Shown piece by piece: positions 16,703 to 63,378 of a DNA stretch of 64,000 bases (positions are counted from its first letter, which is position 1; every line of letters begins with the position of its first letter). This stretch comes from Terriglobales bacterium. GTDB lineage: Bacteria; Acidobacteriota; Terriglobia; Terriglobales; Acidobacteriaceae. Location: positions 62,001 through 126,000 of the forward strand of contig JASHOU010000216.1 in NCBI GenBank assembly GCA_030038475.1, read 5' to 3'. The notes under the pieces were generated by a model that was given only the letters and a program-made list of their open reading frames with translations, did no database searches and was not told where the DNA came from. A program made the position numbers and the translations under genes.

Positions 16703-18247
16703 CTAGAGGTTCGCGGCCATGAATGCAGTTTCGCTCTCGGCAACGGGCACGAAGATATCGGGTGTAGTGAGCGCCCGGTCCAGCGCATCGGCGAGGGCGG
16801 AGGGAAATTCGGAAGTGAGAAGGTTGACGTCAAGTTGCAGATCTCGCCGGCTGTAGATGCGATAGACAACGAGCGAGCCGCGGCGCCGGTTGGATTTTGT
16901 CACGAGATCGAGCGTCAGCTTCCATGAAGGCTCGTTGGAGATTGCGGTTATATGTGGAAACTTCTGCCAATGAAGATGATGATTGTTTTCGGCAGCCAGC
17001 GCTTGATCTCCGGGAAGCGGCCTGAGATGTAGTTCGAAGGCGTCGAAATCGTTGCTGGCGAAGGCCGCGGTAAGCACTCGACGCAGCTGATCGAAATCGC
17101 TGGCGGCTTTAAGTTCTTCCACCGCGCGACGCACGGAAAGATTGTTGATAACAATTTGCCGCTGGTCAATCGTGCGCTGCGCCACCCGCCGCAGTTCGCC
17201 AAACTCCAGGTAGTTGAGATGCTGAACGCCCAGCCAGATGCCGGTACCGACGACCGCCAGCACCAGTCCCAGCGTGCTGCCCGTGGGCCAAAGCAGGAAA
17301 AGGCTGAGCATGGCAAACAACGCGGAAACGGCGTAGAGAACGATGACGACCTGGCGATGCGAAAAACCCATCTGCAACAATTTGTGGTGGATGTGCTCGC
17401 GATCGGCGGTGAAAATCGGACGCCCCCCGATCAGCCGCCGCAGAATGGAAAGCGCAGTTTCAAGAATGGGCAACCCAAAGGAGACTACGGGTATGGCGAC
17501 GGCGATGAAAGTCGGCGCTTTTTGCGCTCCCGCCAGAGCTAGCGCGCTGAGCATGAAACCGATGAACAGGCTGCCTGAATCGCCCAGAAAGATCGTAGCG
17601 GGATTGAAGTTGAAACGAAGGAACCCAAGAATGGCACCAGCCAGAGTCACGCTCATCAGCGAAGCAAGCCCGGAATGAACGACCATCGAGACAACAAAAA
17701 AGACCATGGTCGAAAACAACGCCGACCCCGCAGCCAGACCATCGAGTCCATCAATGAGATTGAAGGCGTTGGTAACCGCAACCACCCACAGAATCGTGAG
17801 GGGAAGTCCGACAAACCACGGAAGAGATTGCGCGCCAAAGATCAACGGCAGATCAAGAACCCGCATTCCGCCGGCAAAGAGCATTGCTGCGGCAACCGCT
17901 TGCACAGCAAATTTCAGATACGGTCCCGCTCCATGCAGATCGTCATAAATGCCGAGGCAAAAAATCAGGCAGGCGGGAAGATAAATGCGGAGCAACGTTG
18001 CCGGGGCGAGCCCATCGAGCAGCTTAGGAAAAACGAGGGAGAGCCCCAGCCACACGCTCAAGCTGACTGAGAAGGCTAGAAAAATCGCGACGCCGCCCAA
18101 ACGCGGAAGTGGCGTTTGATGGACATGGCGCCCCTCTTGCGGCACGGAAACCCAGCCTTTGCGGGTTGCTATGTCCCGCACTTGCCGCGTGGCTACGAAC
18201 GACAGCACCAGGGAGAACGCAAACAGTCCCAAAAAAAGCAGCGTCAA
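16703..18247 (-). CDS. WecA/MraY-family undecaprenyl-phosphate sugar-1-phosphate transferase with C-terminal extension
   Basis: 514 residues. The first 345 are a polytopic PNPT enzyme: the DDLHGAGP aspartates on the first cytoplasmic loop, the catalytic NAFNLIDGLDGLAAG, FLGDSGSLFIGF, and the HIHHKLLQMGFSHRQVV histidine loop. It moves GlcNAc-1-P or a related sugar-phosphate onto undecaprenyl phosphate to begin a repeat unit at the inner membrane. About 165 further residues form a soluble domain without a recognised name; WecA itself is near 365 residues, so this is a fusion or lineage extension. The start is TTG; the leader upstream can fold (18268-18315). It is the last gene, in transcription order, of the 18501-25214 group. 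Confidence 0.85.
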   Translation of the reverse strand: MTLLFLGLFAFSLVLSFVATRQVRDIATRKGWVSVPQEGRHVHQTPLPRLGGVAIFLAFSVSLSVWLGLSLVFPKLLDGLAPATLLRIYLPACLIFCLGIYDDLHGAGPYLKFAVQAVAAAMLFAGGMRVLDLPLIFGAQSLPWFVGLPLTILWVVAVTNAFNLIDGLDGLAAGSALFSTMVFFVVSMVVHSGLASLMSVTLAGAILGFLRFNFNPATIFLGDSGSLFIGFMLSALALAGAQKAPTFIAVAIPVVSFGLPILETALSILRRLIGGRPIFTADREHIHHKLLQMGFSHRQVVIVLYAVSALFAMLSLFLLWPTGSTLGLVLAVVGTGIWLGVQHLNYLEFGELRRVAQRTIDQRQIVINNLSVRRAVEELKAASDFDQLRRVLTAAFASNDFDAFELHLRPLPGDQALAAENNHHLHWQKFPHITAISNEPSWKLTLDLVTKSNRRRGSLVVYRIYSRRDLQLDVNLLTSEFPSALADALDRALTTPDIFVPVAESETAFMAANL

Positions 18248-18500: not shown

Positions 18501-19436
18501 TTAGCTTGAATGCGGGTGCGTGGATTGTGCGGCGAGCGCATCTGTCAAGCGGGAGCGCAAGCGCCGTCTTTTGCGTCCCCACAATGCGTCCGCAAGTCCC
18601 GAGTACATGAAGCGAAAATCCGCCGGCGGATAGTCGACTTCTACTTCTATGCGCCAGATCAGGGAAGGTGTATCGGTGCGACAGTCGACGGAGCCGGGAC
18701 AGGGTGCAAAGCAGAAACGGTGGTGCTGCTGGATCAGCTTCCAGGCGGCGGGAGTAATCGAATCCCAGGAAAAAGTCCATGCAAAAGCATTTACGGGCTG
18801 GCCCGCCCATGCGGCAATCTGTTCGGCGCTGTCGACAATTTCATGATGTAACTGGCTTCCGGGCAAGGTTCGCAGGTTCACATGCGAGTAAGTGTGGTTG
18901 CCAATGGCGTGGCCGCGGCGCGCCAAATCGGCGATCTGATCGGGGGTCATGGAACGCGTTTCTTCGTCGGGAAGGGATGGCGGAAACTCGCGGATATCGA
19001 TGCGAGAGTAATAGAACTGCCGCGCTTCCTGCGGGCTGCATTGCACAAATTGCGGAACCACGAAGAAGACGCCATGCGTTCCGAAGGATTCGAGCAGTGG
19101 TGCGGCAACGGTGTAGTTGTTTTGGCGCCCATCGTCAAATGTGAACAGCAACGGAGGCTTGGTTATCTTCCACAACCGCGGGTTGACACGATACTCCTGC
19201 CATAAGTTGGCAAAACCAGAGAGGTCGACGAACTGAAAATGACGCGCTGCCCACTCCAACTGCCGGCGCAGTTGTGCCGCATCGCGCTCCGGCGTCTCAT
19301 GCATCTCAACCGCCAATAGTCTGGGAGATAGCCCCGAGCGGACCAGCCATCGACGCAAAACGAGTGTCAGCTTATCCGCGCGAAGGGCCGCGGCGCTTCT
19401 GATTAAGGCGGAACGGGCGACAGTCCTGATTGTCAA
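18501..19436 (-). CDS. Polysaccharide deacetylase (NodB-like, carbohydrate esterase 4 family)
   Basis: 311 residues. LLFTFDDGRQ holds the catalytic and metal-binding aspartates (101, 102) and GNHTYSHVNL the H-x-x-x-H metal histidines (181, 185). Family members remove N-acetyl groups from polymer or lipid-linked sugars. No clear signal peptide, so it may act on a cytoplasmic or membrane-bound intermediate. The start is TTG with AAGGGA upstream; it follows the GNAT-like gene by 40 bases and precedes the WecA-like gene by 253, suggesting membership of the same unit. Deacetylation would free an amino group that the neighbouring acyl-carrier system could re-acylate (inference). Confidence 0.8.
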   Translation of the reverse strand: MTIRTVARSALIRSAAALRADKLTLVLRRWLVRSGLSPRLLAVEMHETPERDAAQLRRQLEWAARHFQFVDLSGFANLWQEYRVNPRLWKITKPPLLFTFDDGRQNNYTVAAPLLESFGTHGVFFVVPQFVQCSPQEARQFYYSRIDIREFPPSLPDEETRSMTPDQIADLARRGHAIGNHTYSHVNLRTLPGSQLHHEIVDSAEQIAAWAGQPVNAFAWTFSWDSITPAAWKLIQQHHRFCFAPCPGSVDCRTDTPSLIWRIEVEVDYPPADFRFMYSGLADALWGRKRRRLRSRLTDALAAQSTHPHSS

Positions 19437-19476: not shown

Positions 19477-20580
19477 TTACAAAAACATATCGCCATCGGC
19501 AGGCACGAAATACCAATCGCGCGATGGAAGCAATCGATACTTGTCGATGCACCAGGCAATGGGCGCTTCAAAAGAGCGGACCTTGAAACCTTGCATGGTT
19601 AGAGCCTGTTCCGCAGCCGCATCCAGGCAGCGGAATACGAGCGCATCGATCTCATGAGCATAATCGCGCCACAGGCAGGCGGCGATTGCGAGACATGTTT
19701 TGGGGTCCGGTTCGCCCCATATGTCCAATACATGCAAGGCTCTGATCTGCTGTTTGTACCCGCGATTCTGCAAGCGGACGGCAACGAGAAATTGGTTTTG
19801 CCTGGCGTCGGTCGGGCCAAAGGCAAACAGACGAGTCTCGCCGCTGACGCTCGAAAAATAGCGCCATTTGAGGAACTCGAGGTCGCGGCGACTTGTGATC
19901 TTGTCGCTGTGGTTTTGCGCGCAGAGGTTAGCCGCTTCTTCGGGAGTGCTGATTTGCAGAGATTCTCCCGCCGCACTGTCACCCGACAAGTTGCGCCCGG
20001 CGCGGAAGAATGGCGACGTGAGAACGGATACAAGCCTAGCCACGAGATCGCTTCCGGTTTTGCGATACGCGTTTTCCGCCAGCAGCGGCGGCCAGCGCAC
20101 TATGCCAAGAACTTCGTGGTCCGAATTCGCCAATGAGAATCCCCCGAGTCTTCGCCACATTTCTGCCACGATTGCATTGGCAGAACTCACAAATAACGGA
20201 TACCGGCGGCCGAGCTGCAAAAATTTCAGAAAGAGCGACGCGCCCGATCCTCGATATTCATCGGCCACATAAAAAGAATTCGCCATCATCAGCAAAAATG
20301 TTCTCTCGCCGAAACAGAACTTCTGCGGAGCGCAACATAAACACCCGACAATTTCTCCTGAAGAAGCACGCAGAACCCAGCCCAAAGGATCGCCGGACTG
20401 GCGCGCCGGATTATTCAAGAGAATCCACGAAAATCTCTCCACTGCCTGGAAAATCGGCGTTTCGGATCCTGAGACACCGTTGATGAATCTCGCGATCTCC
20501 TCCAGGTCAGAAACGGCGATCTCGTGCAGGTGCGCGCCTTTGCCTTTTCCCGGCATGTCGCTTTCGCAATCGTTTCTCAC
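19477..20580 (-). CDS. GNAT-fold acyltransferase-like protein
   Basis: 367 residues (GTG start; an ATG at 20556 gives 359). The pattern WVLRASSGEIVGCLCCAPQKFCF, then MANSFYVADEYRGSGASLFLKFLQLGRRYPLFVSSANAIVAEMWRRLG, has the order of a GNAT fold, with Y-R-G-S-G-A in the place of the R/Q-x-x-G-x-G/A acyl-cofactor loop. The second half (RDLEFLKWRYFSS ... RALHVLDIWGE) looks like a duplicated, degenerate GNAT half as in FemAB/double-GNAT proteins. It sits directly downstream of the FkbH-ACP-MaoC/SDR genes and is the obvious candidate for moving an ACP-bound acyl group onto an amino sugar (inference). Not assigned to a named family. Confidence 0.6.
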   Translation of the reverse strand: MRNDCESDMPGKGKGAHLHEIAVSDLEEIARFINGVSGSETPIFQAVERFSWILLNNPARQSGDPLGWVLRASSGEIVGCLCCAPQKFCFGERTFLLMMANSFYVADEYRGSGASLFLKFLQLGRRYPLFVSSANAIVAEMWRRLGGFSLANSDHEVLGIVRWPPLLAENAYRKTGSDLVARLVSVLTSPFFRAGRNLSGDSAAGESLQISTPEEAANLCAQNHSDKITSRRDLEFLKWRYFSSVSGETRLFAFGPTDARQNQFLVAVRLQNRGYKQQIRALHVLDIWGEPDPKTCLAIAACLWRDYAHEIDALVFRCLDAAAEQALTMQGFKVRSFEAPIAWCIDKYRLLPSRDWYFVPADGDMFL

Positions 20581-20638
20581 TCTACAGTGGGCAACTCACC
20601 GCTCTTGCTTGCAAACCGAGAAACTGGGAAACCGTTCA

Positions 20639-21856
20639 CTACAGCTGCGCTCCAGAGAGCACGATCGATTGTCCTGAAATGAATGACGCTGTGGGCGAGA
20701 GAAGATAGCGAACCACGCCAACGATATCCTCAATCTCACAACTCCGGCCCATCGGGATCAGCGCTTGTTCGCGCTTGATCTGCAGGTCATCGGCATGCGC
20801 ATTCATGCCTGTGGGCACGAAATTCGGGCACACGGCATTGATGCTGATTTTTTTTCGCGCCATCTCGGGAGCCAGCAATTTCACGGTGTCTTCCAAGGCA
20901 GACTTCGCGAGAGAATACGCGCCCAAGGCCAGGGACGGCTTATGCTGGCCTGCAGTTGAGCCGAGCGCCACCATGCGTCCACCGCTGGAGCCAACGAGAT
21001 TGAATAGCATGCGCGCCAGACATACGACGTGCGTAGTTCCGAAGGCGAGCTGTTGCTCGATCAGCCGAGGGTCGCTTTGCAGCAGCCCGCCCTTGGGCAT
21101 GCCGGCCCATGCGCAATGCACAACGCCGTAAAGAGAACGGCCATCGAGCCGCTCGGCGATAATTTGCTCCCATGCCGCAGCATTGATATCGGCTTGAATT
21201 TCCACCGTATGATCTGGCCTTTCACGCAATGGACGACGATGCACCAGGGCGAGGACGGAGAACTGTTCGGCCAGAGCGGGTAACAGAGCCGCGCCGATCC
21301 CTCCGGAAGCTCCAGTGAGAAGCACGATTTTTCTATCGCCGTCTTCTTTTTCTTTTCGGCTAGAGAAAAATGGCGTTTCCAACGGCCTCGACGGCGGCGC
21401 AGGCACTGCGAGTTTCTCCGCTTCTGTCGTTTGCAGCGTGAATGCCATCGTGATTTCCGATGCGGGCGCGAGCGATGCCAAATCACTCACGGTGACCCGG
21501 AGATTGCCGGCACGAGAGCCAGTGTTCCATGCGGTGATTTCTCCGCTGACCCTGACCCGGGATGGAAAGTAGAGAGGCGCGATAAAATGCGCATTCACCG
21601 AGCCAAGCAGCGCGTCACGCCCCGGCAAGTGCATGCCGATGAGAGCCGAAGCTAAGCCAATTTGAAAAGCGCCGTGAACAATGCGCTGCGAATAGCGGCT
21701 GTGCGCGGCGAAATCGGAATCCACGTGCAGAGGATTGAAGTCGCCGGAGTTGGCGGCAAAGGCGAGCACGTCCGACTCTGCGATTTCGCGCTCGTACTCC
21801 GCCGTGAGTCCTACGCGGAGATCGGCCTCCGCTACAACTTTAGGCGCCTGCGTCAC
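20639..21856 (-). CDS. Fusion of MaoC-like dehydratase and short-chain dehydrogenase/reductase
   Basis: 405 residues. Residues 1-150 are a hot-dog MaoC/R-hydratase domain with the intact DFNPLHVD motif (39-46). Residues 175-405 are an SDR domain with TGASGGIG (181-188), the catalytic Ser in LGSTAG (300), and Tyr314/Lys318 in YSLAK, so both halves appear active. MaoC domains remove or add water across C2-C3 of thioester-bound acyl groups; this SDR class (FabG-like) interconverts hydroxy- and keto-acyl groups. GTG start with GGAG seven bases upstream, overlapping the ACP gene by 17 bases, so the two are surely co-translated. The obvious reading is that both halves work on the ACP-bound group. 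Confidence 0.85.
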   Translation of the reverse strand: MTQAPKVVAEADLRVGLTAEYEREIAESDVLAFAANSGDFNPLHVDSDFAAHSRYSQRIVHGAFQIGLASALIGMHLPGRDALLGSVNAHFIAPLYFPSRVRVSGEITAWNTGSRAGNLRVTVSDLASLAPASEITMAFTLQTTEAEKLAVPAPPSRPLETPFFSSRKEKEDGDRKIVLLTGASGGIGAALLPALAEQFSVLALVHRRPLRERPDHTVEIQADINAAAWEQIIAERLDGRSLYGVVHCAWAGMPKGGLLQSDPRLIEQQLAFGTTHVVCLARMLFNLVGSSGGRMVALGSTAGQHKPSLALGAYSLAKSALEDTVKLLAPEMARKKISINAVCPNFVPTGMNAHADDLQIKREQALIPMGRSCEIEDIVGVVRYLLSPTASFISGQSIVLSGAQL

Positions 21857-22100
21857 GCGAGATCTCCGGAGATACTCTGCGCAGATAATGCAGGATCAAA
21901 TCGAATGAAATGAGATCGGGAACATCTTCTGGCGATACGTTGAGACTGAACTCCTCCTCGACAAGAGCGATCAAGGTGATGCCGGTAAGCGAATTCCAAC
22001 TCGCCAGCGAGGCTGTCGACGCCGAAGAAATCTCCCGCCGATCAAGCTCGGGAAACGCAAGAGCAAAACATTTCGTCAAACGGCTTTCGAGGTCAGCCAT
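21840..22100 (-). CDS. Acyl carrier protein paired with FkbH (first copy)
   Basis: 86 residues. The phosphopantetheine site is in SLASWNSLTGITLIALVEEEF, where the usual D-S-L is N-S-L; the modified residue is the Ser of NSL. Acidic helix III (VSPEDVPDLISFDLILHYL) completes the four-helix bundle. The real start is the ATG at 22098-22100, which overlaps the end of the FkbH gene by eight bases; the frame is open further upstream but that is inside FkbH. FkbH proteins load D-glyceryl from 1,3-bisphosphoglycerate onto such discrete ACPs. No phosphopantetheinyl transferase is in the window. Confidence 0.85.
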   Translation of the reverse strand: MADLESRLTKCFALAFPELDRREISSASTASLASWNSLTGITLIALVEEEFSLNVSPEDVPDLISFDLILHYLRRVSPEISRDAGA

Positions 22101-23940
22101 TCGGCGATTCCTCGACGATGTGGCTTGGAGCGGGGCAAGTCTCAGCGAATTGCTCGCGCGACAGCCGGCAGTGCGGCCCGGCAGGCGCGTTACGAACCTG
22201 CTGCAGGAAATTTTGCATGGGTGTGTTACGCGCTGTGGGCAAGAAATCGAATTCAAGTTCATCGACGTCGAATTTGGCAAACAACCAGCGGGCGCACTCA
22301 TATTCGATCAAACGAGAAAACGCGCGGCAACTCATGACCCAGGTGCGTATGCAGAGCCGGCGTTTGGCGGAAGAGTTGCCATTACTCGCGCCATTCACGA
22401 GATCGCCGCCAATCACAGCTATTTTGCCCAGTGGTCCGTATTTATCGCGATAACTCGCGGCGACCAGCACGGATTCCGGCGCGGTCAGCCAATTTTGCCA
22501 CTCCGATTCCTGAAAGCGGCGGCCGTTCAGGTTGAACTGATTGGTCTTATTCACCAGTTCTAGCGATCTCGGATCGAGCGGTTGTTTCTTCGAGTTGAGC
22601 GTCAATCTGCCGTCGATGAAGCGCAGAAAATCGGCCGCAGCCTCGGGCGAAGCTTGCTGCGCATCGTACTGCAATTGCGCCCGGTTTCGCAGGCTGGCCG
22701 CGCGGAGATCATCCTCCTCCGATATTCTGTCTTTACCAAACAAATCCCGCAGCCGTTCCAGCAGTTCGTAAGCTTCCTGCGGATTATCGCGTGGAAACAG
22801 CAGACACTCCGCCGCGGGATGCCGTGATTTGATCTCTGCCAAATCCATCGTGCTGTCGTCGACACAGACTACATCGTCGGCGGAAATGTTCCACGCGGCG
22901 AGAATGCGTGCCACGGACTCGGACTTCGGACCCCAGTGCACCTCAAAGGGAAAAACGTCTTTCTCACGCAGGATGGGTTCCCGCGAGGCGAACGCTTCTG
23001 CGACCAGTGAGCGGTCATTCTTGCTGGCGACAGCTATCAGCGTTCCGGTTGCCACGAGGGAGCGAAGTAACTGCTGATACAAGCCATGAATTTGACTCTG
23101 GCTCTCCAAATCCCACGAAATTCCCTGTACTCCGACTTCGCCGACAATGCCTCGCCAAACAGTATCGTCGAGATCGGTGATCAGACCTTTCTTGGGATGC
23201 CTGTTTACAACCAATTCCGCCAGTAACTCAGCCAGCGCCGAAGCGTGAGCCAGAGTATAAGGAAAACCCGACGCGAGATCGGAGTTGACATCCTGCCGCT
23301 GAAATGACGAGAGCGAATCGAGTCGCTGAGGATCGACAATTCGGACACCGGCAATATGCGATAGTGCGGCGCCGAGCAAAGCGATGCGGCTGCGAAGTTC
23401 AAGCGCGAACTCGCTCGCGCGAGCCGGACGACTGAATGAGACTGGAACCAGCGGAAGTGTTGGGAAGCCGACGACAATCGGAATATTGCGTGCCAGCGCG
23501 GCCATGGCGTTCTGCAGAAGATCGCAGCTGCGCGTTACTTCCGCCAGAATATCGGGCAACTGGGATGGTTCCCAGCTGCCAAGACGGCGAAGCCCGAGCC
23601 TGGGATCGAGATCCGGCCATTCGATCACCACCACCGCGACAGAAATATCCGTCGCGCGCTGCAGATTGCCAAGCAAGTCGCCGTACAACCCCGTCTGCAC
23701 AACGGGAGAACGATCGGGAAATAATTTGCAGAGGTGCGCACGAAGGAAAGTTTCCAGATGCAGTGGAGTAAATCCACACAGAAGCGCTACCCGCAGTTGA
23801 GGACCATCAACTGGAGCTGAATGAATAATACTCAGCGCTTCGGCCAGCTTCATTTCATCGTCGAAATCTGGCAGTGACGGTTGCTGCGAGCAATCATCCG
23901 CGCCTGCCGAAAAAAGTATATCCCACACGGCGAGAGCCAT
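22093..23940 (-). CDS. FkbH-like HAD-IIIC phosphatase/glyceryl transferase (first copy)
   Basis: 615 residues: an N-terminal domain of about 240 residues, then the HAD domain with the nucleophile motif LITDLDDTVWRGIVGE (Asp256, Asp258), followed by ASKND and VCVDDSTMDLAEI, and a C-terminal GNAT-like domain (TNQFNLNGRRFQESEW ... SCRAFSRLIEYECARWLF) that in characterised members carries the glyceryl group through to the ACP. Family reaction: 1,3-bisphosphoglycerate plus holo-ACP to glyceryl-S-ACP plus phosphate. Start overlaps the AT3 stop as TAATG, and the stop overlaps the ACP start. The C-terminus is unusually rich in Pro and Cys. Confidence 0.85.
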   Translation of the reverse strand: MALAVWDILFSAGADDCSQQPSLPDFDDEMKLAEALSIIHSAPVDGPQLRVALLCGFTPLHLETFLRAHLCKLFPDRSPVVQTGLYGDLLGNLQRATDISVAVVVIEWPDLDPRLGLRRLGSWEPSQLPDILAEVTRSCDLLQNAMAALARNIPIVVGFPTLPLVPVSFSRPARASEFALELRSRIALLGAALSHIAGVRIVDPQRLDSLSSFQRQDVNSDLASGFPYTLAHASALAELLAELVVNRHPKKGLITDLDDTVWRGIVGEVGVQGISWDLESQSQIHGLYQQLLRSLVATGTLIAVASKNDRSLVAEAFASREPILREKDVFPFEVHWGPKSESVARILAAWNISADDVVCVDDSTMDLAEIKSRHPAAECLLFPRDNPQEAYELLERLRDLFGKDRISEEDDLRAASLRNRAQLQYDAQQASPEAAADFLRFIDGRLTLNSKKQPLDPRSLELVNKTNQFNLNGRRFQESEWQNWLTAPESVLVAASYRDKYGPLGKIAVIGGDLVNGASNGNSSAKRRLCIRTWVMSCRAFSRLIEYECARWLFAKFDVDELEFDFLPTARNTPMQNFLQQVRNAPAGPHCRLSREQFAETCPAPSHIVEESPNG

Positions 23941-25214
23941 TAGAACGACTCGGAGACTTCAGTTGCCGCTATTGATGCCGGGGCGGATACCACGACGCGC
24001 ACATGCGGTTCGTCAGGCGACTGTTTTGCAGCTTGCTCGGGTCGCACCGCACCCCGCTCCTTCAGTTGCAGGAACCACTCCTCATAGTATTTGCGCGAAA
24101 CGAATGCCACGCCAGTCGAAACAGCAGCCACAATCGCGAACCGAAGCACGATCAGGTCAAAATGTGCAGCTGAGGGCTGCAGGGAAGGCCAGAATGCGGC
24201 CGTGAATTTGTCGTAGATGCGAAAGATCATGAGATGGACCAGATAAAGCCCGTAGCTGATGTAGCCGAAGAATCCCAGGATTGAACTGTTGATCAGCGTC
24301 CTGCGGGAGCCACTGCCGACGACGAGAAAAAGCAGAAGCAAGCCGGCGAAGAAAGTGTTCACCAGCGTCAACTGCACAGAAGCGCCGAGTGCAGTTTGCC
24401 GCGACAAGATGCCGAAGGGAACTCCGGCGATCAAACCTAGCATTGCGATCATCAGGAGAGACACGGCCGCAATCGCCGCGTACTTGCGGCCGACCAGACC
24501 TTTAATCGAACTTCCAGCGGAACTGTCTACCGACGTCCCCACCGAACTGCGGATCGAGCTGCGCAGCATGATCGCTAAAAGACTGCCTTCGGCCAGACCA
24601 TCGGCGTTAAACCATGTGTACCATTCGCTGCCCTGGAAATGGCCGTAGTGAAACGAGACTGCTCGCGCGACAGGAATCAGGATGCAGAGCGCGAAAGAAA
24701 ACATCGCCAGAAAACGCGGGCCCAGATTGCGCACGACCGACGGCCAAGCAATGTAGTAGTGCTCTTCGACCGCCAGCGACCAGAGCGGATGATAATCCAT
24801 GAACACGCCGAAAAGACCGGCGACGTTCGAGAGATAAACAAAGCTAAGCCCGAGAAACGCGGCGGAGGCCTGATGCAGCAGCGCTAGGGCAATTAAGAGC
24901 GAATAGTATGCCGGGAGAATTCGCAGGGCTCGCCGCTTATAAAAGCGGCGGTAGTAGTCAGGACGATTGCGCGAGTCGAGAAGAATTCCAGTAATCAGAA
25001 ATCCCGATAAAACGAAGAACAGATTTACGCCGAGCACTCCAGCCTGAGTGGCGAGCAGGAAAACTTTGCGTGCACCGGTAAACGGCAAGTCTCCAAATTC
25101 CACTCGAAAGCCGTGGAAGAGGAGTACACCGAGAACCGCGATTCCGCGCAGAACATCCAGTTCGGGCATGAAACGACGGATGAGTGGTTCCGGCGCGGGC
25201 AAATCTGTTTTCAC
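23940..25214 (-). CDS. Acyltransferase 3 (OafA/YrhL-like) membrane protein
   Basis: 424 residues with ten or so membrane segments. FMPELDVLRGIAVLGVLLFHG carries the conserved R and H of AT3 enzymes, and FFVLSGFLITGIL, FYKRRALRILPAYY and HPLWSLAVEEHYYIAWP are hallmark blocks. AT3 proteins O-acylate lipid-linked sugars or polysaccharides at the membrane. GTG at 25214 is preferred to the upstream start at 25256 because GGAGG lies seven bases away. Between helices is a low-complexity stretch SSIR-SSVG-TSVD-SSAG encoded by a 12-bp repeat. Coupled to FkbH by TAATG. Confidence 0.85.
   Translation of the reverse strand: MKTDLPAPEPLIRRFMPELDVLRGIAVLGVLLFHGFRVEFGDLPFTGARKVFLLATQAGVLGVNLFFVLSGFLITGILLDSRNRPDYYRRFYKRRALRILPAYYSLLIALALLHQASAAFLGLSFVYLSNVAGLFGVFMDYHPLWSLAVEEHYYIAWPSVVRNLGPRFLAMFSFALCILIPVARAVSFHYGHFQGSEWYTWFNADGLAEGSLLAIMLRSSIRSSVGTSVDSSAGSSIKGLVGRKYAAIAAVSLLMIAMLGLIAGVPFGILSRQTALGASVQLTLVNTFFAGLLLLFLVVGSGSRRTLINSSILGFFGYISYGLYLVHLMIFRIYDKFTAAFWPSLQPSAAHFDLIVLRFAIVAAVSTGVAFVSRKYYEEWFLQLKERGAVRPEQAAKQSPDEPHVRVVVSAPASIAATEVSESF
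24507..24566. repeat. 12-bp degenerate tandem repeat, five copies, inside the AT3 gene
   Basis: Units at 24507, 24519, 24531, 24543 and 24555 (CGAACTTCCAGC, GGAACTGTCTAC, CGACGTCCCCAC, CGAACTGCGGAT, CGAGCTGCGCAG). They encode a four-residue period of S-[IVA]-x-[ST] in a loop between membrane helices. Confidence 0.65.
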
Positions 25215-25291
25215 GCTACGTCCTCCGTTGGAGCGGCATAATAGAGCCCGGACCAACGCTTAGAAAATTCAGCTCGTAGTGATTTTGGCAA

Positions 25292-30120: not shown

Positions 30121-32324
30121 AAGATTGGCGACGCATCGCGTGATAAAACCAATTGGCCTTCGCTCTCGCGAACCGTGAGCTGTTCATCGGCGAGTATCAC
30201 CGTGACCATTCGCACCGGCACCGGCGCGTGCACACGGTAGAGAATCGAAATTGCCGGACAAAGTTCGCCATAAGTCGGCGATTCCCAACCCAGCAGTTCC
30301 TCGCCCGAGCGAGCGCTTTCGCCGGCCAGATTTTTCCTGCCGCGAATTACGGCTGCCCTTCCCGGCGAACTCGAGAAGATGTTCCAGCGAATGCGTGCTT
30401 TTTCGGCCGAGAGGGCTGCGCAGAAGGGCGAATTCTCGATCACCGTAAACGGCAGATCCGGCAGCAGCCAGTGCAAACGCAATTCGTGTTCACCGTTGCC
30501 TTCGAGATCATCGACACGCAGGTCATCGACAACGACCCATGCGTCTTCGCTCACGCAGTGAACGCTCCGCCGATGATTGACTCCGAGCCGGCGATATCCG
30601 TTGTGCTCGCCCTCAAAAGAATCGGGATAACCGGCGCCCTTTGCGGAAAAAGATCTGCCCGATGCTTGAGCCCAATCGAGCCACAGAAAGCGTCCGGCGC
30701 GGCGCATCTGATCGCGGCCATCGACCATGACCGTGTTGTGAACAGCGGTGCCGGTGAGTCCGTTGTTCCAGGGAACCGGACCGTTGTAAAGATACGTGCC
30801 GGCATCGCGTGCGACATTAAGGCCGTGCCACCACAGATCCACATGCATTTGATCGGCTTGAAACGGACGCCGCGTATAACGGCCCGCCCTTATCAGCGCC
30901 CAGGATCTTTTCGCGCCGATGCGGTGATAACCAGTGGAATTGTTTTCAGACTCGCGAACCGATCCACAAGAGAATGATTCGCAAGAAACGGATTCGCGTT
31001 CCGCATTTGCCGTCTGACGGCAAAACCCCGGCGCAGCGCCAAACTCCGAAGCGCTAATCCCTGAACTGTCAAACCAAATTCCGGCCTCGTCCCACGGCCC
31101 ATCCGCGAGCGCCGTCGGGCGATTGAGAACGCACCCTCCCAGGCGCAACAGCGGACGATAGTCATCATAATCGCAGGCGGACAACGGAAATAGATAGCTC
31201 CCGTCGTTCGACCCATGATTGGGCGCATGTCCCGAGTCGGAGTCTATAAATCTGGCGAGGAACTCAAAGGCCGCGACTGTGCGCGCGCGAATCTCACGGT
31301 CAAGTTCGACTCCGTACAATTCGGCTAGGCGAAGCGTCCAAAGAAGCAGATCCACAACCATCCTCTGATAGTTGAACGAATCCTGCAGATAAGCGCCCTC
31401 GGGGGTAATCTGATCGAGAACGGCTTCGCGCAAAAACCGCGCACCCCATCCCTGGAACAGAGCTGCATCGTTGAGTTCAGGATACAGCGTTCCAGCGGTA
31501 AACAAGCCGACAGCCTCGCTGAACAGATGATTGCTGCGTTGCGATCGAGCGTAGCTTACGGTTTGCAGCGTGCGCCAGGCGTGAGCCGCAATCATGGAGA
31601 GCAGTAGTGCCGCCCGTTCCGGCGTCGTGGCCGGTGAATCAAGAAACGCATACAGCGCGAAAGACCAAGCCAGAATCCGCAAAGAAGATTCCTGTCCGCA
31701 GATCCATAGTGGACCGGACATGGGCGGGCTTTGTGCAGCCCAGTCCTCAATTGCAGTCCAGAACGCTTTCGCGAATCGCTCGTCGCCGCTGATTGCGTAT
31801 GCACGAGCCAAGGGATAGACGAACAGGAAACGCGACGGTTCGAGAATGAACTTGAAGTCGCCGTAGTCGTCAGAAGCAAAGCGCATTTTTGTCCACGGGC
31901 GATTGGGCGAGATACGCTGGCCGGTGGCCGGGTTCTCGAACCATTTGGGAGGAAAACTACAGGCGAACGACAATCGCCCAAAGAAAGGCAGGTTGCCCTC
32001 AAGGATTCGGTTCGCTTCGGCAAGAAGAGATTCTTCGCCGCGAGCGCCAAGAATTTGCTTGAGCCCAACGGCCAAGCGGCGAGACTCTCCGAAGAAGAAA
32101 GGCCGACTGCCCTGCCGGCGAACGCTTAGAAAATCTGCGGGCGAAATCCCAGAAGCGATGTGTTTCAGGTCCCAGCGGTCCCAGCCGCTGGCCGATGCCA
32201 TGCGGCGCGACATGAGTCCGCTGCTGCGTTGCAGTTCGTAGTCAAGGCGCAGGTACCCGGCGCGCGCGCCAAATGTTCGAGCGATCTGAAGCGCGGTGGC
32301 CAAGTTAACGGTAAAGTTAACCAT
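30099..32324 (-). CDS. Heparinase II/III family protein
   Basis: 741 residues. An N-terminal alpha/alpha toroid (residues about 60-390: RPWTKMRFASDDYGDFKFILEPSRF, RSNHLFSEAVGLFTAG, GAYLQDSFNYQRMVVDLLLW with likely catalytic N/H/Y residues) and a C-terminal beta-sandwich (MHVDLWWHGLNVARDAGTYL, TAVHNTVMVDGRDQMRRAG). Family members are uronate-containing polysaccharide lyases; those inside biosynthesis clusters may trim or remodel the polymer. No signal peptide is evident, so a cytoplasmic role is possible. ATG 32324 preceded by GTGGGGG is chosen over 32369; it overlaps the formyltransferase gene by eight bases. Its last codons are part of the 14-bp repeat. Confidence 0.85.
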   Translation of the reverse strand: MVNFTVNLATALQIARTFGARAGYLRLDYELQRSSGLMSRRMASASGWDRWDLKHIASGISPADFLSVRRQGSRPFFFGESRRLAVGLKQILGARGEESLLAEANRILEGNLPFFGRLSFACSFPPKWFENPATGQRISPNRPWTKMRFASDDYGDFKFILEPSRFLFVYPLARAYAISGDERFAKAFWTAIEDWAAQSPPMSGPLWICGQESSLRILAWSFALYAFLDSPATTPERAALLLSMIAAHAWRTLQTVSYARSQRSNHLFSEAVGLFTAGTLYPELNDAALFQGWGARFLREAVLDQITPEGAYLQDSFNYQRMVVDLLLWTLRLAELYGVELDREIRARTVAAFEFLARFIDSDSGHAPNHGSNDGSYLFPLSACDYDDYRPLLRLGGCVLNRPTALADGPWDEAGIWFDSSGISASEFGAAPGFCRQTANAERESVSCESFSCGSVRESENNSTGYHRIGAKRSWALIRAGRYTRRPFQADQMHVDLWWHGLNVARDAGTYLYNGPVPWNNGLTGTAVHNTVMVDGRDQMRRAGRFLWLDWAQASGRSFSAKGAGYPDSFEGEHNGYRRLGVNHRRSVHCVSEDAWVVVDDLRVDDLEGNGEHELRLHWLLPDLPFTVIENSPFCAALSAEKARIRWNIFSSSPGRAAVIRGRKNLAGESARSGEELLGWESPTYGELCPAISILYRVHAPVPVRMVTVILADEQLTVRESEGQLVLSRDASPIFQVSLSK

Positions 32325-33177
32325 TGCCCCCACCGTAACCGCCAAGGCTGACTGATTCGGCGCAGGCACCAGCCAGACTCAAGCGCCGCTGCTCCAGTCG
32401 GCGCGAAGCGGCAACCTTCAAGCGCTCGTGCATCACAAAAAATTGATTGTCTTTCTCGCGATCATTCTGCGCGACGGGCGATATCGTGCCACGCTCGAGC
32501 CCGCAGACTGCTTCGGCAATTAACTCGACACCCTCGGCGATCATTCTATTTCGCAGATCTTCCAGCGATTCGTAATCGCTGGCTCCCGCAAATTCGCGCC
32601 GCAACAGGATCGGGCCAGTATCAATCCCGCTGTCTATGAAATGAATCGTGACGCCCAGGGGAACTCCACAAAGCAACGACCACTCCGGGCTGCTCATGCC
32701 GCGGATTTCGGGCAGCAGAGCAAGATGCGCATTGAGAACTCCGAGGCGAGGAACTTCGAGCAGCTTCCTCCGAAGTATGTTTCCGCCGGTAAAGATGGCT
32801 AAATCGGGCGACCACTGCTTCATTTGGGCGATGGCACGCCTCGAATTCTGATTGGCACATGTCACGACGGGAAATTTGTATGCGGCGCCCACCTCACGCA
32901 AATTGCGAAATGCTCCTCGCTCGTGGCGCAATGCCGCTTTCAGATGGGGATTACGAATCGCCTTGCAAGCGGATGTTTTCGCCGGTCGCAACTTGGCAAC
33001 GGCGTAACCGACGGAATCGCGCAGCCCCCATTGCCCAAGTTTGCGCAACAGCGTGCCCGAATCCCAGGATCGCAGCGTCAGCGCGCCCACGGGAATGTAC
33101 CCGAGTTGCGCCAGCCGCGAAGCGACAGCGCAGCCCGTTTCACTGTACGCGCTCGAGCACAGCATCGCTATGTGCAT
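32317..33177 (-). CDS. Formyltransferase-family protein
   Basis: 286 residues with the core of methionyl-tRNA/GART formyltransferases: NAHLALLPEIRGMSSPEWSLLCG and the catalytic Asp region VTIHFIDSGIDTGPIL. The usual N-H-D triad is represented by N (NAHLALLP), H (of the same motif) and D (GIDTG). It lacks the C-terminal tRNA-binding domain, so a sugar N-formyltransferase (as for Qui4N or Fuc4N) is likely; the donor would be N10-formyl-THF. The gene overlaps both neighbours by 8-10 bases, placing it firmly within the polysaccharide operon. WecE further along makes a 4-amino sugar that could be a substrate (inference). Confidence 0.75.
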   Translation of the reverse strand: MHIAMLCSSAYSETGCAVASRLAQLGYIPVGALTLRSWDSGTLLRKLGQWGLRDSVGYAVAKLRPAKTSACKAIRNPHLKAALRHERGAFRNLREVGAAYKFPVVTCANQNSRRAIAQMKQWSPDLAIFTGGNILRRKLLEVPRLGVLNAHLALLPEIRGMSSPEWSLLCGVPLGVTIHFIDSGIDTGPILLRREFAGASDYESLEDLRNRMIAEGVELIAEAVCGLERGTISPVAQNDREKDNQFFVMHERLKVAASRRLEQRRLSLAGACAESVSLGGYGGGNG

Positions 33178-34503: not shown

Positions 34504-36525
34504 TCACGCCGTAGCCAACTGCTGTTCGCCGATGTGGCGCTCAGCAAATGCACGCGCTCCGCCATCGAGAAAAAGCTGCGCCCATATCTCCAGCGTAAGA
34601 AATTGCCAAATCTGCATGGACCAGTCTTCCGCGCCGCGGCGATGTTCGTCGACGTACCGTCGCACTGCTTCCGGCTGAAACAATCCACGCCTGCGGATTT
34701 GGCTTTCCGAAAGCAGATCATCGGTCATGGAACGCAGGTCGTGCGCTAACCAGTAATCGATCGGCGCGGCAAACCCGGCTTTCGGTTGGCGCATTACTTC
34801 ATCGGGCAGCATGTTACGCATGGCTTCGCGAAAAACATATTTCGTCACCGGACGCCATTTTCCCTTCAGCTTCCACTCGGGCGGCACGTTCCAGGCCGCG
34901 AATTCAGCCAACTCGCGGTCGAGGAAAGGCACACGCACCTCGACCGACGACGCCATGCTCATTTTGTCGTTATAAGTCAGATTCAGCGTCGGCATGAAAA
35001 TCTTGCTGTCGAGATAAAGCATCTGGTTGAGAAAATCGGCGTGCTGCACCTTGTCGAATGCTGCCAGGTGCCGATCCGCGGGCTCGCTCTCTGCACCCTG
35101 CCGCGATTTCAAGCTGTCTAAATCTCGCCGCTGCTGTACATCAAGATAAGTACAGTTTCGTATGAATGCTTCGGCCGGACTAAATTTCAGGCTGCGCGCC
35201 GCTTTCTTGGCCAGACGCACTGGGCCTTTCCAACGAGTTCCGCGCAGCGATGGCAATGCAAAAACGAGCCGCTCCGCGGCGGAGCGGGCAAAGCGTGGAA
35301 TGCGCCGGTAGTGTCGCGCCCACCCGTATGCTACGTGCTTTCGATACCCCGCAAAAAGCTCGTCGCCACCGACTCCTGAAAGAAGCACCGTCGATTGTTT
35401 TCGCGCCTCGCGACACACGAGGTATGCCATGATGATTGCCGGATCGGCTGTAGGCTCATCCATGTGCCAGGCGAGCTTCGGCAACAGAGAGACCACGTCG
35501 GGCTCGACCACGATCTCATGATGCTCGATCTCACGATGCTCGCAGCTCAACTTGCGCGCGAACCGCATCGGAACGGTGGGATCGTCAATGGCCGTCTCGC
35601 CCACGCGATATTTTCCGGGAAAGGTAATCGTGTAGGTTCGCACGGGTTGTTTGCGCGCCATCGCCGCCACAATGCTCGACGAATCGAGCCCCGCGCTGAG
35701 AAATGCTGCGATCGGAACGTCGCTCACCATCTGCCGCTCGACCGACGCGCAGAAGCGTGTGCAAATTTCATCGGCCACATCCGCTTCAGATTTTTCAAAT
35801 CGGTGATCGGCTGGAGGAAACGTCAAGTCCCAGTATTGTTTGATCTGAAGCTCGCCGCGTTGCCATACTGCGTAGTGTCCCGCCGGAAGCTTGTAGATGC
35901 CCTCAAACATCGTCAGCGGATCCGGCACCCAGAGGAAGGTCAGATATTTCTCGAGCGCTTCGAAGCTCATGCGCGCTTCGATTCCCGGCACTTCGAGCAG
36001 CGCTTTCACTTCGGAAGCGAAAGCGAGTTTTCCGCCGCGCTCGCAATAATAAAGAGGCTTGATTCCGAAATGATCGCGCGCCAAAAACAGCTTTGGAGAA
36101 GCGCTGCGCAAATCCCCGCGCAAATCGACGATGGCGAGTGCAAACATGCCGTTCAGCCGATTCAGGCAGTCTTTGAGGCGATCGGGTCCGTATTCTTCGT
36201 AGAGATGAACTACAACTTCGGTATCGGTGTGCGAGCGGAAACGATGACCCTTGCTTTCGAGCTCCGTCCGCAGATCGGCGAAATTGTAGACCTCGCCGTT
36301 GTAGGTGATCCACACTGTGCCATCTTCGTTCGCCATCGGCATGTGGCCGCTGGCGGAAAGATCGAGAATGGCAAGACGGCGGCTTCCCAGTCCTATGTAT
36401 CCGCCATCGGGGAAATGCCGCTGCCAGAGTCCGAAGTCATCGGGACCGCGGTGCGACTGCACGCTCGTCATGCGGCTAAGCGTCTCCGTGTCTCCGCAGT
36501 TCACCAGTCCGCTGATGCCGCACAC
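34504..36525 (-). CDS. asnB: Asparagine synthase-like glutamine amidotransferase (first copy)
   Basis: 673 residues. Cys2 nucleophile in MCGISGLVN, glutaminase motifs SHRGPDD, RLAILDLS and YNGEVYNF, then the synthetase domain with FLSAGLDSSSIVA (PP-loop, SGGxDS with one G to A change), and GVGGDELFAGYRKH. In exopolysaccharide clusters such enzymes are thought to amidate sugar carboxyl groups rather than make asparagine. It is about 40 residues longer than the other copy (37653-39560) and only about a third to half alike by eye, so the two probably act on different substrates. Start lies three bases from the stop of the glycosyltransferase before it. Confidence 0.85.
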   Translation of the reverse strand: MCGISGLVNCGDTETLSRMTSVQSHRGPDDFGLWQRHFPDGGYIGLGSRRLAILDLSASGHMPMANEDGTVWITYNGEVYNFADLRTELESKGHRFRSHTDTEVVVHLYEEYGPDRLKDCLNRLNGMFALAIVDLRGDLRSASPKLFLARDHFGIKPLYYCERGGKLAFASEVKALLEVPGIEARMSFEALEKYLTFLWVPDPLTMFEGIYKLPAGHYAVWQRGELQIKQYWDLTFPPADHRFEKSEADVADEICTRFCASVERQMVSDVPIAAFLSAGLDSSSIVAAMARKQPVRTYTITFPGKYRVGETAIDDPTVPMRFARKLSCEHREIEHHEIVVEPDVVSLLPKLAWHMDEPTADPAIIMAYLVCREARKQSTVLLSGVGGDELFAGYRKHVAYGWARHYRRIPRFARSAAERLVFALPSLRGTRWKGPVRLAKKAARSLKFSPAEAFIRNCTYLDVQQRRDLDSLKSRQGAESEPADRHLAAFDKVQHADFLNQMLYLDSKIFMPTLNLTYNDKMSMASSVEVRVPFLDRELAEFAAWNVPPEWKLKGKWRPVTKYVFREAMRNMLPDEVMRQPKAGFAAPIDYWLAHDLRSMTDDLLSESQIRRRGLFQPEAVRRYVDEHRRGAEDWSMQIWQFLTLEIWAQLFLDGGARAFAERHIGEQQLATA

Positions 36526-43643: not shown

Positions 43644-43763
43644 TTCCGAAGTAAGTGTAAACGAGGATGAGTGATCAGGGCGTTCATTTCTTTGGTACGG
43701 GCACGAGTTGACGTGCAGACGGCCAAAAGGCGCGACGATTACGACGACAACCAAGTGGCAGGG

Positions 43764-61120: not shown

Positions 61121-61372
61121 TTAACTCGGTGTAGAGTGAAGTTTCGATTCTAGCATCGCACTAATCTGGCCCAGACTGCGCATTTGCTCCATTTCTTCCG
61201 GAGACAATTGGAAACCAAATTTCTCTTCCAATGCGAGGATCAGATTAAGGTGCTGCATGGAGTCCCAGGCTGATATGGTATCGGGCGAAGAATCCGCCCC
61301 AATTTTCTGCACGGGAACGGCGAATATATCCGCTGCGAGTTGCCGCACCTGCTCGAAGATCGCGGCGTTCAA
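61121..61372 (-). CDS. Acyl carrier protein paired with FkbH (second copy)
   Basis: 83 residues. Canonical phosphopantetheine site in SAWDSMQHLNLILALEEKFGF (Ser of DSM), acidic helices on both sides. TTG start three bases after GGAGG, overlapping the FkbH stop as TTGA. Followed by about 100 bases without a gene before the flippase gene. Confidence 0.85.
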   Translation of the reverse strand: MNAAIFEQVRQLAADIFAVPVQKIGADSSPDTISAWDSMQHLNLILALEEKFGFQLSPEEMEQMRSLGQISAMLESKLHSTPS

Positions 61373-63378
61373 GAGCCTCCTCCATTGACAATGTTAGCCG
61401 TGACAATGTTAGGCGTGACGTTGTTAAGCCTGACGTTGTTAGGTCCGACGTTGTCAGGCCCGACAACGTTAAGCCGAATCCAGTCTGGACAAGTCACCTG
61501 CTGCTTCTGCAAGTCTAAAACCCATAGCGAACCATTACCGTTTTGCGCCTGACATTCGAAACCGTTATGGCGATAGAAATCCTTGACCAGCGAATTCTTT
61601 TTCGTAGACAGAAACCAACCGACCAGCCGTTTGCAGCCTCGAGCCTTGGCGTTTCGCGCCACGTGTGACAACAGTACTTCCTCAACCGACCTTCCGATTA
61701 CCCGGCAACTTAGCAGAAAAGTGTCGATTGCACAGGTATCTTCTTCGTCACAGGTGATGGCAACGCCAACTAATCCATGGTCCCCGAACCGGTCTTTCAC
61801 TCGGATGGAAAGCACCTGGCAACCGGGGTTAGCCGCCAGTTCGGCGATTTGCTGCTCGCTGTAGCGCCGAGTGGTGAGATTGAACTGATTGGTTTTCTGC
61901 GTCAGTTGGGAAATACGGGCTAAAGTTATGGGCACAAGCGGCGCAATTTCAGCCTCCTGCCGAAGATGACGGCAAAAATCCTCTTTCGACGAAAAACTGT
62001 TCTCGGCGCGGGCGCGTTCGCGCTGTTCTGCGTAGAACATGGTGCGCTGCCGGTCTTCGATCGACAGAGTCAGCCGTTCGAACGCGGGACAATCGCGTAC
62101 CAGAGCGGCATATTGCATCGGATCAGCCTTCATCGACTCGTATTGCTTCGGATCTTCGGGAAGATCCAGGACCAACACTTCTGGAAGTGCGGCCCGAACC
62201 TGCTCCCGCTCGAAAGGATTGTCATCGAGAAAGGCGAGGCTATCCAGACCTATATTCAATTCTGCGGCGATCTCTCGCAGACCTTGAGGCTTGTCGTTCC
62301 AGTTGATGCGCATCGCGGCAAAGTTCGCGGGTCGCAGCAACATGCCAGGATGCTTTTCCAGCACCTCTATCGCGTCATCCGCATTGTTTTTGCTACAAAT
62401 GGCGAGCAGAATACCCTTGCGCGAAAGGTCCAGCAAGGCCCGTTGTAAGAGTTGATAAGCCGCGCCGGGATACTCTATGCCGAGTTGAATGCTGTTCATT
62501 CCGTCTTCACCGATGACTCCACCCCAAAGCGTGTTATCGAGATCGACCACCAGTGCTTTGGCCGTCTTTCCACTGAGTGGAATCAGCAACCGTAACCATT
62601 CGTTGGCGAGGTGAATCAGCTGCGGCGCTGCAATCGGTAGGCCGACGGAGAGAAGCTTGCGCTCGTCCTGCCAACGCAGGCGTCCATGGCGTGCAATCAA
62701 AGCATCGTAGTCGAGAATGTAGACTCCGCGGTGTTCGCGGGCGATGCGGCGGAGCTCCCGATTCATGGTTTGTATTGCATCCGACTGCCCGATCTCCACT
62801 TGAGAATCGAGCACCCCGAATGCGGCACGGGGCGGTTGTTCGAGAGTATGCACGATAAGCGTCGCTTCGCTATGCTCACGGAACGACGCGATGAGTTGTG
62901 CCAAAGTGCTGCACACGCGTTGGGTTGCGTCGTGAATTGCGGAGGATACAAGATCGGAGGATGCAAGCCCGGAATACTCCTGCCACAAATCGCCAGCAAT
63001 ATCGACGGTTCGCACTGCGAGGATGACAACGTCAGGTACGAAGCGGTAAAGAGAGCTTCCCTTATCGAGAATCTCCTGCGCGTAGGCGTTGAAGTCGCCG
63101 ATGTGAACCTGAAGGTCGATCCGATAGCGAAACGCCGCAGCTCGCAAAAGTGGAATGGCTGGCTCGAGCGTAAAAGAGCGAACAACCGCGATGCGAAGAG
63201 GTAACAGGTTGAGTCGATCGCGCAGCTTTTCTATCCGCGAGACTATAAACGCAGCAGATGCCGGACTGGTCTCATGCCGCCAAAGTTCGTCGATTGCAGC
63301 AGCCGCGGCGTCGACGCTCGACGACGAAATCAGGCGGTTAATTTCGCCGCGAAGATCCGAAATCTTATTTTCTGCCAT
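61369..63378 (-). CDS. FkbH-like HAD-IIIC phosphatase/glyceryl transferase (second copy), with repeat-encoded tail
   Basis: 669 residues: N-terminal SGNH-like domain (about 1-260), the HAD domain with KALVVDLDNTLWGGVIGEDG (Asp279, Asp281), CSKNNADDAIEVL and FLDDNPFEREQVR, then a GNAT-like domain (TNQFNLTTRRYSEQQI ... SCRVIGRSVEEVLLSHVARN). This matches full-length FkbH proteins that make glyceryl-ACP from 1,3-bisphosphoglycerate. The last 35 residues are an added tail of five-residue units (VGPDN, VGPNN, VRLNN, VTPNI), encoded by the repeat at 61386-61475. ACP is next in the operon. Confidence 0.85.
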   Translation of the reverse strand: MAENKISDLRGEINRLISSSSVDAAAAAIDELWRHETSPASAAFIVSRIEKLRDRLNLLPLRIAVVRSFTLEPAIPLLRAAAFRYRIDLQVHIGDFNAYAQEILDKGSSLYRFVPDVVILAVRTVDIAGDLWQEYSGLASSDLVSSAIHDATQRVCSTLAQLIASFREHSEATLIVHTLEQPPRAAFGVLDSQVEIGQSDAIQTMNRELRRIAREHRGVYILDYDALIARHGRLRWQDERKLLSVGLPIAAPQLIHLANEWLRLLIPLSGKTAKALVVDLDNTLWGGVIGEDGMNSIQLGIEYPGAAYQLLQRALLDLSRKGILLAICSKNNADDAIEVLEKHPGMLLRPANFAAMRINWNDKPQGLREIAAELNIGLDSLAFLDDNPFEREQVRAALPEVLVLDLPEDPKQYESMKADPMQYAALVRDCPAFERLTLSIEDRQRTMFYAEQRERARAENSFSSKEDFCRHLRQEAEIAPLVPITLARISQLTQKTNQFNLTTRRYSEQQIAELAANPGCQVLSIRVKDRFGDHGLVGVAITCDEEDTCAIDTFLLSCRVIGRSVEEVLLSHVARNAKARGCKRLVGWFLSTKKNSLVKDFYRHNGFECQAQNGNGSLWVLDLQKQQVTCPDWIRLNVVGPDNVGPNNVRLNNVTPNIVTANIVNGGGS
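61386..61475. repeat. 15-bp tandem repeat, six copies, 3' end of the second FkbH gene
   Basis: Units at 61386, 61401, 61416, 61431, 61446 and 61461 (TGACAATGTTAGCCG, TGACAATGTTAGGCG, TGACGTTGTTAAGCC, TGACGTTGTTAGGTC, CGACGTTGTCAGGCC, CGACAACGTTAAGCC). In frame it encodes the C-terminal pentapeptides. Confidence 0.85.

Follow-up and report, generated by a model that had tools for sequence, protein, structure and literature searches.

A candidate carrier-protein pathway for three-carbon acyl decoration of a polysaccharide in a Terriglobales bacterium

The 64,000-nucleotide (nt) stretch analysed here (the window; contig JASHOU010000216.1 of the 4.46-Mb Terriglobales genome GCA_030038475.1) contains a run of genes for an AT3 membrane acyltransferase, an FkbH-like protein, an acyl carrier protein (ACP), a MaoC-SDR fusion and a GNAT-fold acyltransferase. 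A first-pass annotation had read these genes as one pathway that makes lactyl-ACP for the decoration of a polysaccharide. The best explanation of the unit is a carrier-protein pathway that would supply a three-carbon (C3) hydroxyacyl group to a growing polysaccharide, with a rough probability of 50%. That the unit is dedicated to supplying a glycan with a C3 acyl group from ACP is judged probable, and lactyl, the best single guess for the delivered group, has about even odds. The one-pathway reading is partly supported: the FkbH-ACP-MaoC-SDR set recurs in other genomes and fits a route from glyceryl-ACP, with lactyl as the simplest predicted product.

In the proposed route, FkbH would transfer glyceryl from 1,3-bisphosphoglycerate to the small ACP, as its family membership suggests. 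The MaoC half of the fusion would then remove water from glyceryl-ACP to give enolpyruvyl-ACP and pyruvyl-ACP, and the SDR half would reduce the 2-keto group to give lactyl-ACP. Lactyl is proposed on chemical grounds, because a 2,3-dihydroxypropionyl thioester that loses water should yield an enolpyruvyl and then a pyruvyl thioester, and reduction of the latter should yield lactyl; no configuration is predicted for it. As the pairing of their genes suggests, a polysaccharide deacetylase would act on a cytoplasmic glycan, probably a lipid-linked one, and free a sugar amine that the GNAT enzyme would acylate from the ACP. The AT3 protein may add a separate O-acyl group.

The recurrence of the gene set was assessed in GTDB species genomes, which were scanned with a MaoC-SDR profile and from which the best 80 loci were kept. 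Among the matches listed, every full-length fusion with 32% identity or more, six in number, comes directly after FkbH and an ACP match, and the six represent five phyla (L042, Planctomycetota; L043, Myxococcota; L044, Acidobacteriota; L045 and L047, Verrucomicrobiota; L046, Elusimicrobiota). FkbH was located within 1.1 kb of MaoC in 19 of the 80 loci and was absent from 36, in which the sequence extends for 4 kb or more to either side of MaoC; a further 25 were undecided. Thirteen of the 19 linked loci have the canonical type of FkbH instead of the distinct subfamily found in the window, and they come from Acidobacteriota, Pseudomonadota, Myxococcota, Melainabacteria, Nomurabacteria and Nitrososphaerota. 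MaoC and SDR are separate genes in 8 of these 13. An ACP was recognised at the canonical loci by Pfam (L052, L061, L062, L073, L087, L100 and L121) or by tblastn (L087, L089 and L118); tblastn found none at four of the 13 (L064, L068, L092 and L094), and no further search was made there. The first-pass annotation had regarded the occurrence of the steps as separate small proteins as new, which is too narrow a view, as separate FkbH, MaoC and SDR genes occur in other phyla, in several cases with an ACP.

On a MaoC tree that included 24 FkbH-linked rows, four of them obtained through FkbH, the linked MaoCs clustered together (1 change, compared with a mean of 19 after shuffling; none of 500 shuffles gave so low a count). 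The branch that separates these rows has a support of 31, and the claim is limited to the clustering of the labels. A follow-up scan of 1,025 genomes of three phyla (E 1e-45), in which places outside the centre genomes were counted, gave three further places, two of which were FkbH-linked. The order in L205 is fusion-FkbH-ACP, with an ACP that scored below the Pfam cut-off, and the order in L206 is FkbH-ACP-MBOAT, one more gene, MaoC and SDR. The third, L207, is without FkbH and seems to be the same contig as the unlinked L076. The fusion is rare, being present in 3 of 61 relatives and in 1 of 396 genomes of a phylum sample, with the source genome counted in the first and the sole carrier in the second. 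A search for the five-gene order was partly successful: FkbH-ACP-MaoC-SDR-GNAT-deacetylase was found in L036, from the same genus, and deacetylase-FkbH-ACP-MaoC-SDR-GNAT in L042, where the GNAT was recognised by a custom profile only and not by Pfam. Neither locus has an AT3 gene. Directly upstream of FkbH-ACP-MaoC-SDR in L176 (3050-4728) lie genes for a FabH-like protein and an additional SDR.

The FkbH protein of the unit passes the NCBIfam model TIGR01686 (180.8 bits, cut-off 146.65). The two aspartates of the HAD DxD motif (Asp256 and Asp258) are present in 58 of 58 aligned FkbH rows, and Cys538 in an S-C-R motif is present in all 57 rows that reach this position; the second, canonical FkbH of the window was entered twice in this alignment, and the distinct counts are one lower. 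A catalytic cysteine in the SKN motif was considered and rejected, with alanine at that position in 38 of 45 subfamily rows. The predicted model (predicted local distance difference test, pLDDT, 87) contains SGNH-like, HAD and, at the C-terminus, GNAT-like domains. Its best structural match, through the HAD domain, was 3slr (Z 23.4, root-mean-square deviation (rmsd) 4.1, 362 aligned residues), and residues 444-608 matched the GNAT fold of the sugar N-acyltransferase FdhC (5ktc; Z 11.7, rmsd 3.1, 150 aligned).

The start codon of FkbH affects how the operon is read. The open reading frame remains open to 23940, and an ATG occurs at Met30 of this long frame, at 23853. A start codon is found at this position in all 43 subfamily rows that reach it (of 45 rows), being ATG in the window and 28 ATG, 12 GTG and 2 TTG in the others, and residues 1-23 of the long frame had a pLDDT below 50 in the model. 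The start of FkbH is most likely 23853. This leaves 86 nt between AT3 and FkbH, so the TAATG sequence would form no junction, and the translational overlap of these two genes claimed earlier was rejected as probably the product of a wrong start codon. The other claimed overlaps, 8 nt between FkbH and ACP and 17 nt between ACP and MaoC-SDR, were reproduced, as were the order of the five genes on the minus strand and the position of the GNAT gene 58 nt past MaoC-SDR. The deacetylase gene, which starts 40 nt downstream of the GNAT gene, belongs in the unit, and the operon extends that far.

The ACP scored below the cut-off of Pfam PF00550 (E 0.053; 14.2 bits, cut-off 20.8). It is 47% identical to the ACP of L039, which passes the same cut-off, and the carrier serine is present in 48 of 48 aligned ACP rows, E. 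coli AcpP included. The residue before this serine is asparagine in the window ACP and aspartate in 46 of the 48 rows. The fusion joins a MaoC half (PF01575, E 3.4e-17) and an SDR half (PF13561, E 1.9e-24) in one protein. As had been claimed, both halves keep their catalytic residues: Asp39 and His44 of the MaoC half are conserved in 12 of 12 aligned fusions, and the SDR half has intact TGxxxGIG (TGASGGIG) and YxxxK (YSLAK) motifs with Tyr314 and Lys318. Only L087 lacks the SDR tyrosine among the 12 aligned fusions. An SDR with both tyrosine and lysine is adjacent or fused to 19 of the 24 FkbH-linked MaoCs.

The FkbH subfamily was found in 38 of 399 genomes of the class, the source genome included. 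Forty-seven subfamily loci were compared besides the window, 42 of which were found through FkbH and 5 through the MaoC-SDR scan. An ACP match was found near FkbH in 42 of the 47 (one on the opposite strand), a VOC/glyoxalase gene in 12, a hexapeptide-type gene in 13 and MaoC-SDR in 10, or in 5 of the 42 chosen by FkbH. MaoC-SDR is scattered on the FkbH tree, with 9 changes, of which starred branches force at least 5; of 500 shuffles, 75 gave a count as low. Both L046 and L047, the deepest two rows of the subfamily, carry MaoC-SDR, and the scatter could therefore reflect repeated loss as easily as repeated gain. The most economical interpretation is that glyceryl-ACP is a shared product that MaoC-SDR optionally tailors; such an optional occurrence fits an enzyme that converts this common product.

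Candidates for the transfer to the sugar were compared through their neighbourhoods. The GNAT-like protein gave no Pfam hit, and the N-terminal half of its predicted model has a GNAT fold (Z 13.1, rmsd 2.5, 138 aligned). GNAT and deacetylase profiles, built partly from these loci, were used to count neighbours on the same strand within 4.5 kb of FkbH at 48 subfamily loci. A deacetylase was found at 11, a GNAT at 14 and both at 8, a pairing with a nominal hypergeometric p of 0.0008 when kinship is ignored. Both genes also lie beside FkbH in 3 of the 13 canonical loci. Neither gene was found within 5.5 kb of MaoC in any of 60 MaoC loci without FkbH; these controls come from other taxa, were not picked as glycan loci and test specificity only, and several of the linked loci also seeded the profiles. 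The pair fits a removal of N-acetyl groups followed by N-acylation from a carrier protein, and this route, predicted from gene content, is given slightly less than an even chance. The first-pass annotation had named either the GNAT or the AT3 protein as the sugar acyltransferase. The GNAT is likelier, and the window AT3 was unmatched in the other MaoC-SDR loci. Among the loci searched (tblastn, E 1e-3), it matched only L180, further downstream of FkbH; as other AT3 branches could be missed in this search, AT3 as the main transfer enzyme is demoted only.

Several observations weigh against the lactyl pathway. Weaker full-span fusion matches (22-28% identity) were found in L048, L052, L055, L076, L087, L103 and L110, and only L052 and L087 of these seven are FkbH-linked; L055, L076, L103 and L110 are unlinked, and L048 is a short, 4.6-kb contig. 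The best PDB profile matches of the SDR half are FabG enzymes, and FabG-type SDRs usually reduce 3-keto rather than 2-keto groups. An SDR-type domain does reduce a 2-keto thioester in depsipeptide synthetases. The unit of L176 is adjoined by a FabH-like gene. The model of the GNAT-like protein has a low-confidence mean pLDDT of 60, and its pairing with the deacetylase is seen in a minority of the loci (8 of 48). One lineage of Acidobacteriota has fusions in which the catalytic tyrosine of the SDR half was lost, with phenylalanine or alanine in its place (L087:9956-11164 and L089:9845-11200). No SDR is found beside MaoC in L118, L073 and L061: the MaoC of L118 (3447-3884), from the same acidobacterial lineage, sits between NeuB and FkbH genes, and in L073 (7979-10765) and L061 (3-1331, a short contig) a thaumarchaeal FkbH-ACP-MaoC is followed by a phosphopantetheinyl transferase gene. 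MaoC can thus occur without a reductase. As a NeuB-family gene is located upstream in both L089 and L118, the acceptor in these two may be a nonulosonic acid.

The ACP might carry plain glyceryl that the GNAT or AT3 enzyme passes to a sugar, with MaoC-SDR acting elsewhere or as a side activity. This would suit the 37 of 47 subfamily loci that show no MaoC-SDR, some of which end at a contig edge, and the seven loci in which a hexapeptide-type acyltransferase gene comes directly past the ACP. However, the genes for the fusion and the ACP overlap in the window, and the six closest fusions listed all come after FkbH-ACP, and we consider the plain glyceryl product unlikely here. A short 3-hydroxyacyl group, such as 3-hydroxybutyryl, could alternatively be drawn from the fatty-acid or CoA pool, with FkbH supplying a distinct second acyl group. 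The likeness of the SDR half to FabG and the FabH-like gene of L176 are in keeping with this, as is the match of the FkbH GNAT-like domain to FdhC, which was solved with a 3-hydroxybutanoylamino sugar. A single ACP is nevertheless shared with FkbH, and 64 of the 65 stretches searched lack a ketosynthase-like match, which makes this origin rather improbable. Ordinary chain elongation was itself rejected as unlikely, because FabF-like genes were found in none of the 65 stretches and a FabH-like gene in one (a few of the stretches overlap, and distant ketosynthases could be missed); E. coli FabH gave no match in the window at E 1e-4. That MaoC makes pyruvyl-ACP for transfer as pyruvyl or another C3 acid, with the SDR tuning or reversing the step, would agree with the five loci without a tyrosine-bearing SDR but is very unlikely in view of the intact SDR at 19 of 24 linked MaoCs, the window included.

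The lactyl pathway may be one case of a wider scheme, a modular C3 acyl code for glycans across bacteria and archaea, which is offered tentatively as possible rather than probable. In such a code, FkbH-ACP would make glyceryl-ACP and a swap-in gene would set the group: none for glyceryl, VOC for epimerised glyceryl, MaoC alone for pyruvyl and MaoC-SDR for lactyl. Delivery would be by GNAT and deacetylase, a hexapeptide transferase, AT3 or a Dlt-like MBOAT. VOC genes lie near FkbH in L037, L159, L160, L162, L164, L166, L169, L174, L179, L180, L181 and L185, directly past the ACP in several of these loci, and their products are glyoxalase- or methylmalonyl-CoA-epimerase-like where tested. Because of this resemblance, the VOC protein could epimerise the 2-carbon of glyceryl and thus be a glyceryl-ACP epimerase. 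Mutual exclusion of VOC and MaoC-SDR (both in 0 of 47 loci, nominal p 0.035) was rejected as not significant, since 5 loci were picked for MaoC-SDR; the 42 picked by FkbH, with 5 and 12 carriers, give p 0.17. A hexapeptide acyltransferase gene past FkbH-ACP in L153, L154, L158, L159, L161, L163 and L170 encodes a family with 54-80% mutual identity that is likely a glyceryl transferase.

Pathways to polyketides and peptides in which FkbH loads glyceryl onto ACP have been established or proposed (PMC7489565, PMC3679948, PMC4979870, PMC4552970 and, for suomilide, PMC10143770). The fkbH-domain gene cj1302 of Campylobacter jejuni is named in PMC7099621 among gene differences tied to flagellar glycosylation. 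The tetronate and methoxymalonyl-ACP pathways resemble the window unit in having an FkbH-like protein, a stand-alone ACP, a unit derived from 1,3-bisphosphoglycerate and an ACP-bound group that is changed or used; those pathways lie in polyketide clusters and use either a FabH-like condensing enzyme or a methyltransferase with two dehydrogenases (PMC7489565, PMC3679948, PMC4979870). The window has instead MaoC-SDR, GNAT and deacetylase genes in a polysaccharide cluster. No methyltransferase or acyl-CoA dehydrogenase of a methoxymalonyl-ACP operon was found among the scanned operon genes, and the window lacks the FabH match of a tetronate glycerate-utilisation operon. No description of FkbH with MaoC-SDR in glycan loci was found in the open-licence PMC literature. 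The lactate starter of bryostatin, cited earlier as a precedent, was likewise not found there.

Three glycan systems offer further comparisons. Nod factor synthesis uses a CE4 deacetylase (NodB), an N-acyltransferase (NodA) and a dedicated acyl carrier protein (NodF), and has in common with the unit the removal of N-acetyl and re-acylation from a carrier protein; however, a C3 hydroxyacyl rather than a fatty acyl group is predicted here, and no ketosynthase was found in the window. The Caulobacter holdfast pathway combines a deacetylase (HfsH) with a GNAT-type enzyme (HfsK) in a polysaccharide pathway that is not known to include FkbH-ACP. Since the deacetylase of the window scores as neither NodB (TIGR04243, 31.4 bits, cut-off 240) nor HfsH (NF050820, 40.2 bits, cut-off 400), these are likenesses and not membership. 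D-alanylation uses DltA, DltC and DltB, of which DltC is paired with DltB. An MBOAT acyltransferase gene near FkbH, ACP, MaoC and SDR in L052, L100, L121 and L206 recalls this arrangement, whereas activation would be by FkbH and not by an adenylating enzyme, and the window operon has AT3 and not MBOAT.

If the proposed pathway is true, the glyceryl-ACP chemistry of polyketides would extend to cell-surface glycans, and lactyl, glyceryl and pyruvyl decorations could be predicted from gene content alone. A bare FkbH-like label in a polysaccharide locus would become a testable prediction of a product, and a glycolysis-derived acyl donor would be available for glycan engineering.

The features of the window are listed in Table 1. 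A TTG start for AT3 at 25256 is also open. The WecA-like gene is located 253 nt beyond the deacetylase gene, and its product may start the acceptor lipid-linked glycan. The surrounding genes encode a polysaccharide exporter, glycosyltransferases, a DegT aminotransferase, a formyltransferase and two asparagine-synthase-like proteins, and the region is therefore regarded as a polysaccharide locus.

Table 1. Coordinates of the unit and related features in the window
Feature	Coordinates	Strand	Remarks
AT3 membrane acyltransferase	23940..25214	-	PF01757 E 1e-22; GTG start
FkbH	22093..23853	-	SGNH-like, HAD phosphatase and GNAT-like domains; TIGR01686; distinct subfamily
ACP, 86 amino acids	21840..22100	-	carrier Ser in W-N-S-L
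MaoC-SDR fusion	20639..21856	-	hydratase/dehydratase half PF01575 and ketoreductase-type half PF13561
GNAT-fold acyltransferase	19477..20580	-	tandem-GNAT length; assigned from predicted fold and homologues beside other FkbH genes
CE4 polysaccharide deacetylase	18501..19436	-	PF01522 E 5e-20; motifs TFDD, HTYSH
WecA-like N-acetylglucosamine-phosphate transferase	16703..18247	-	PF00953 E 3.9e-39; WecA model below cut-off
Second FkbH	61369..63378	-	canonical
ACP-like match of second FkbH	61142..61324	-	

The formyltransferase, the two asparagine-synthase-like and the DegT genes (32317-33177, 34504-36525, 37653-39560 and 42483-43754) hint at N-acylated amino sugars. The second FkbH of the window has its own ACP-like match and a TylF-like methyltransferase gene upstream (L188:5473-6330), in the place where its nearest relatives L087, L089 and L118 have MaoC.

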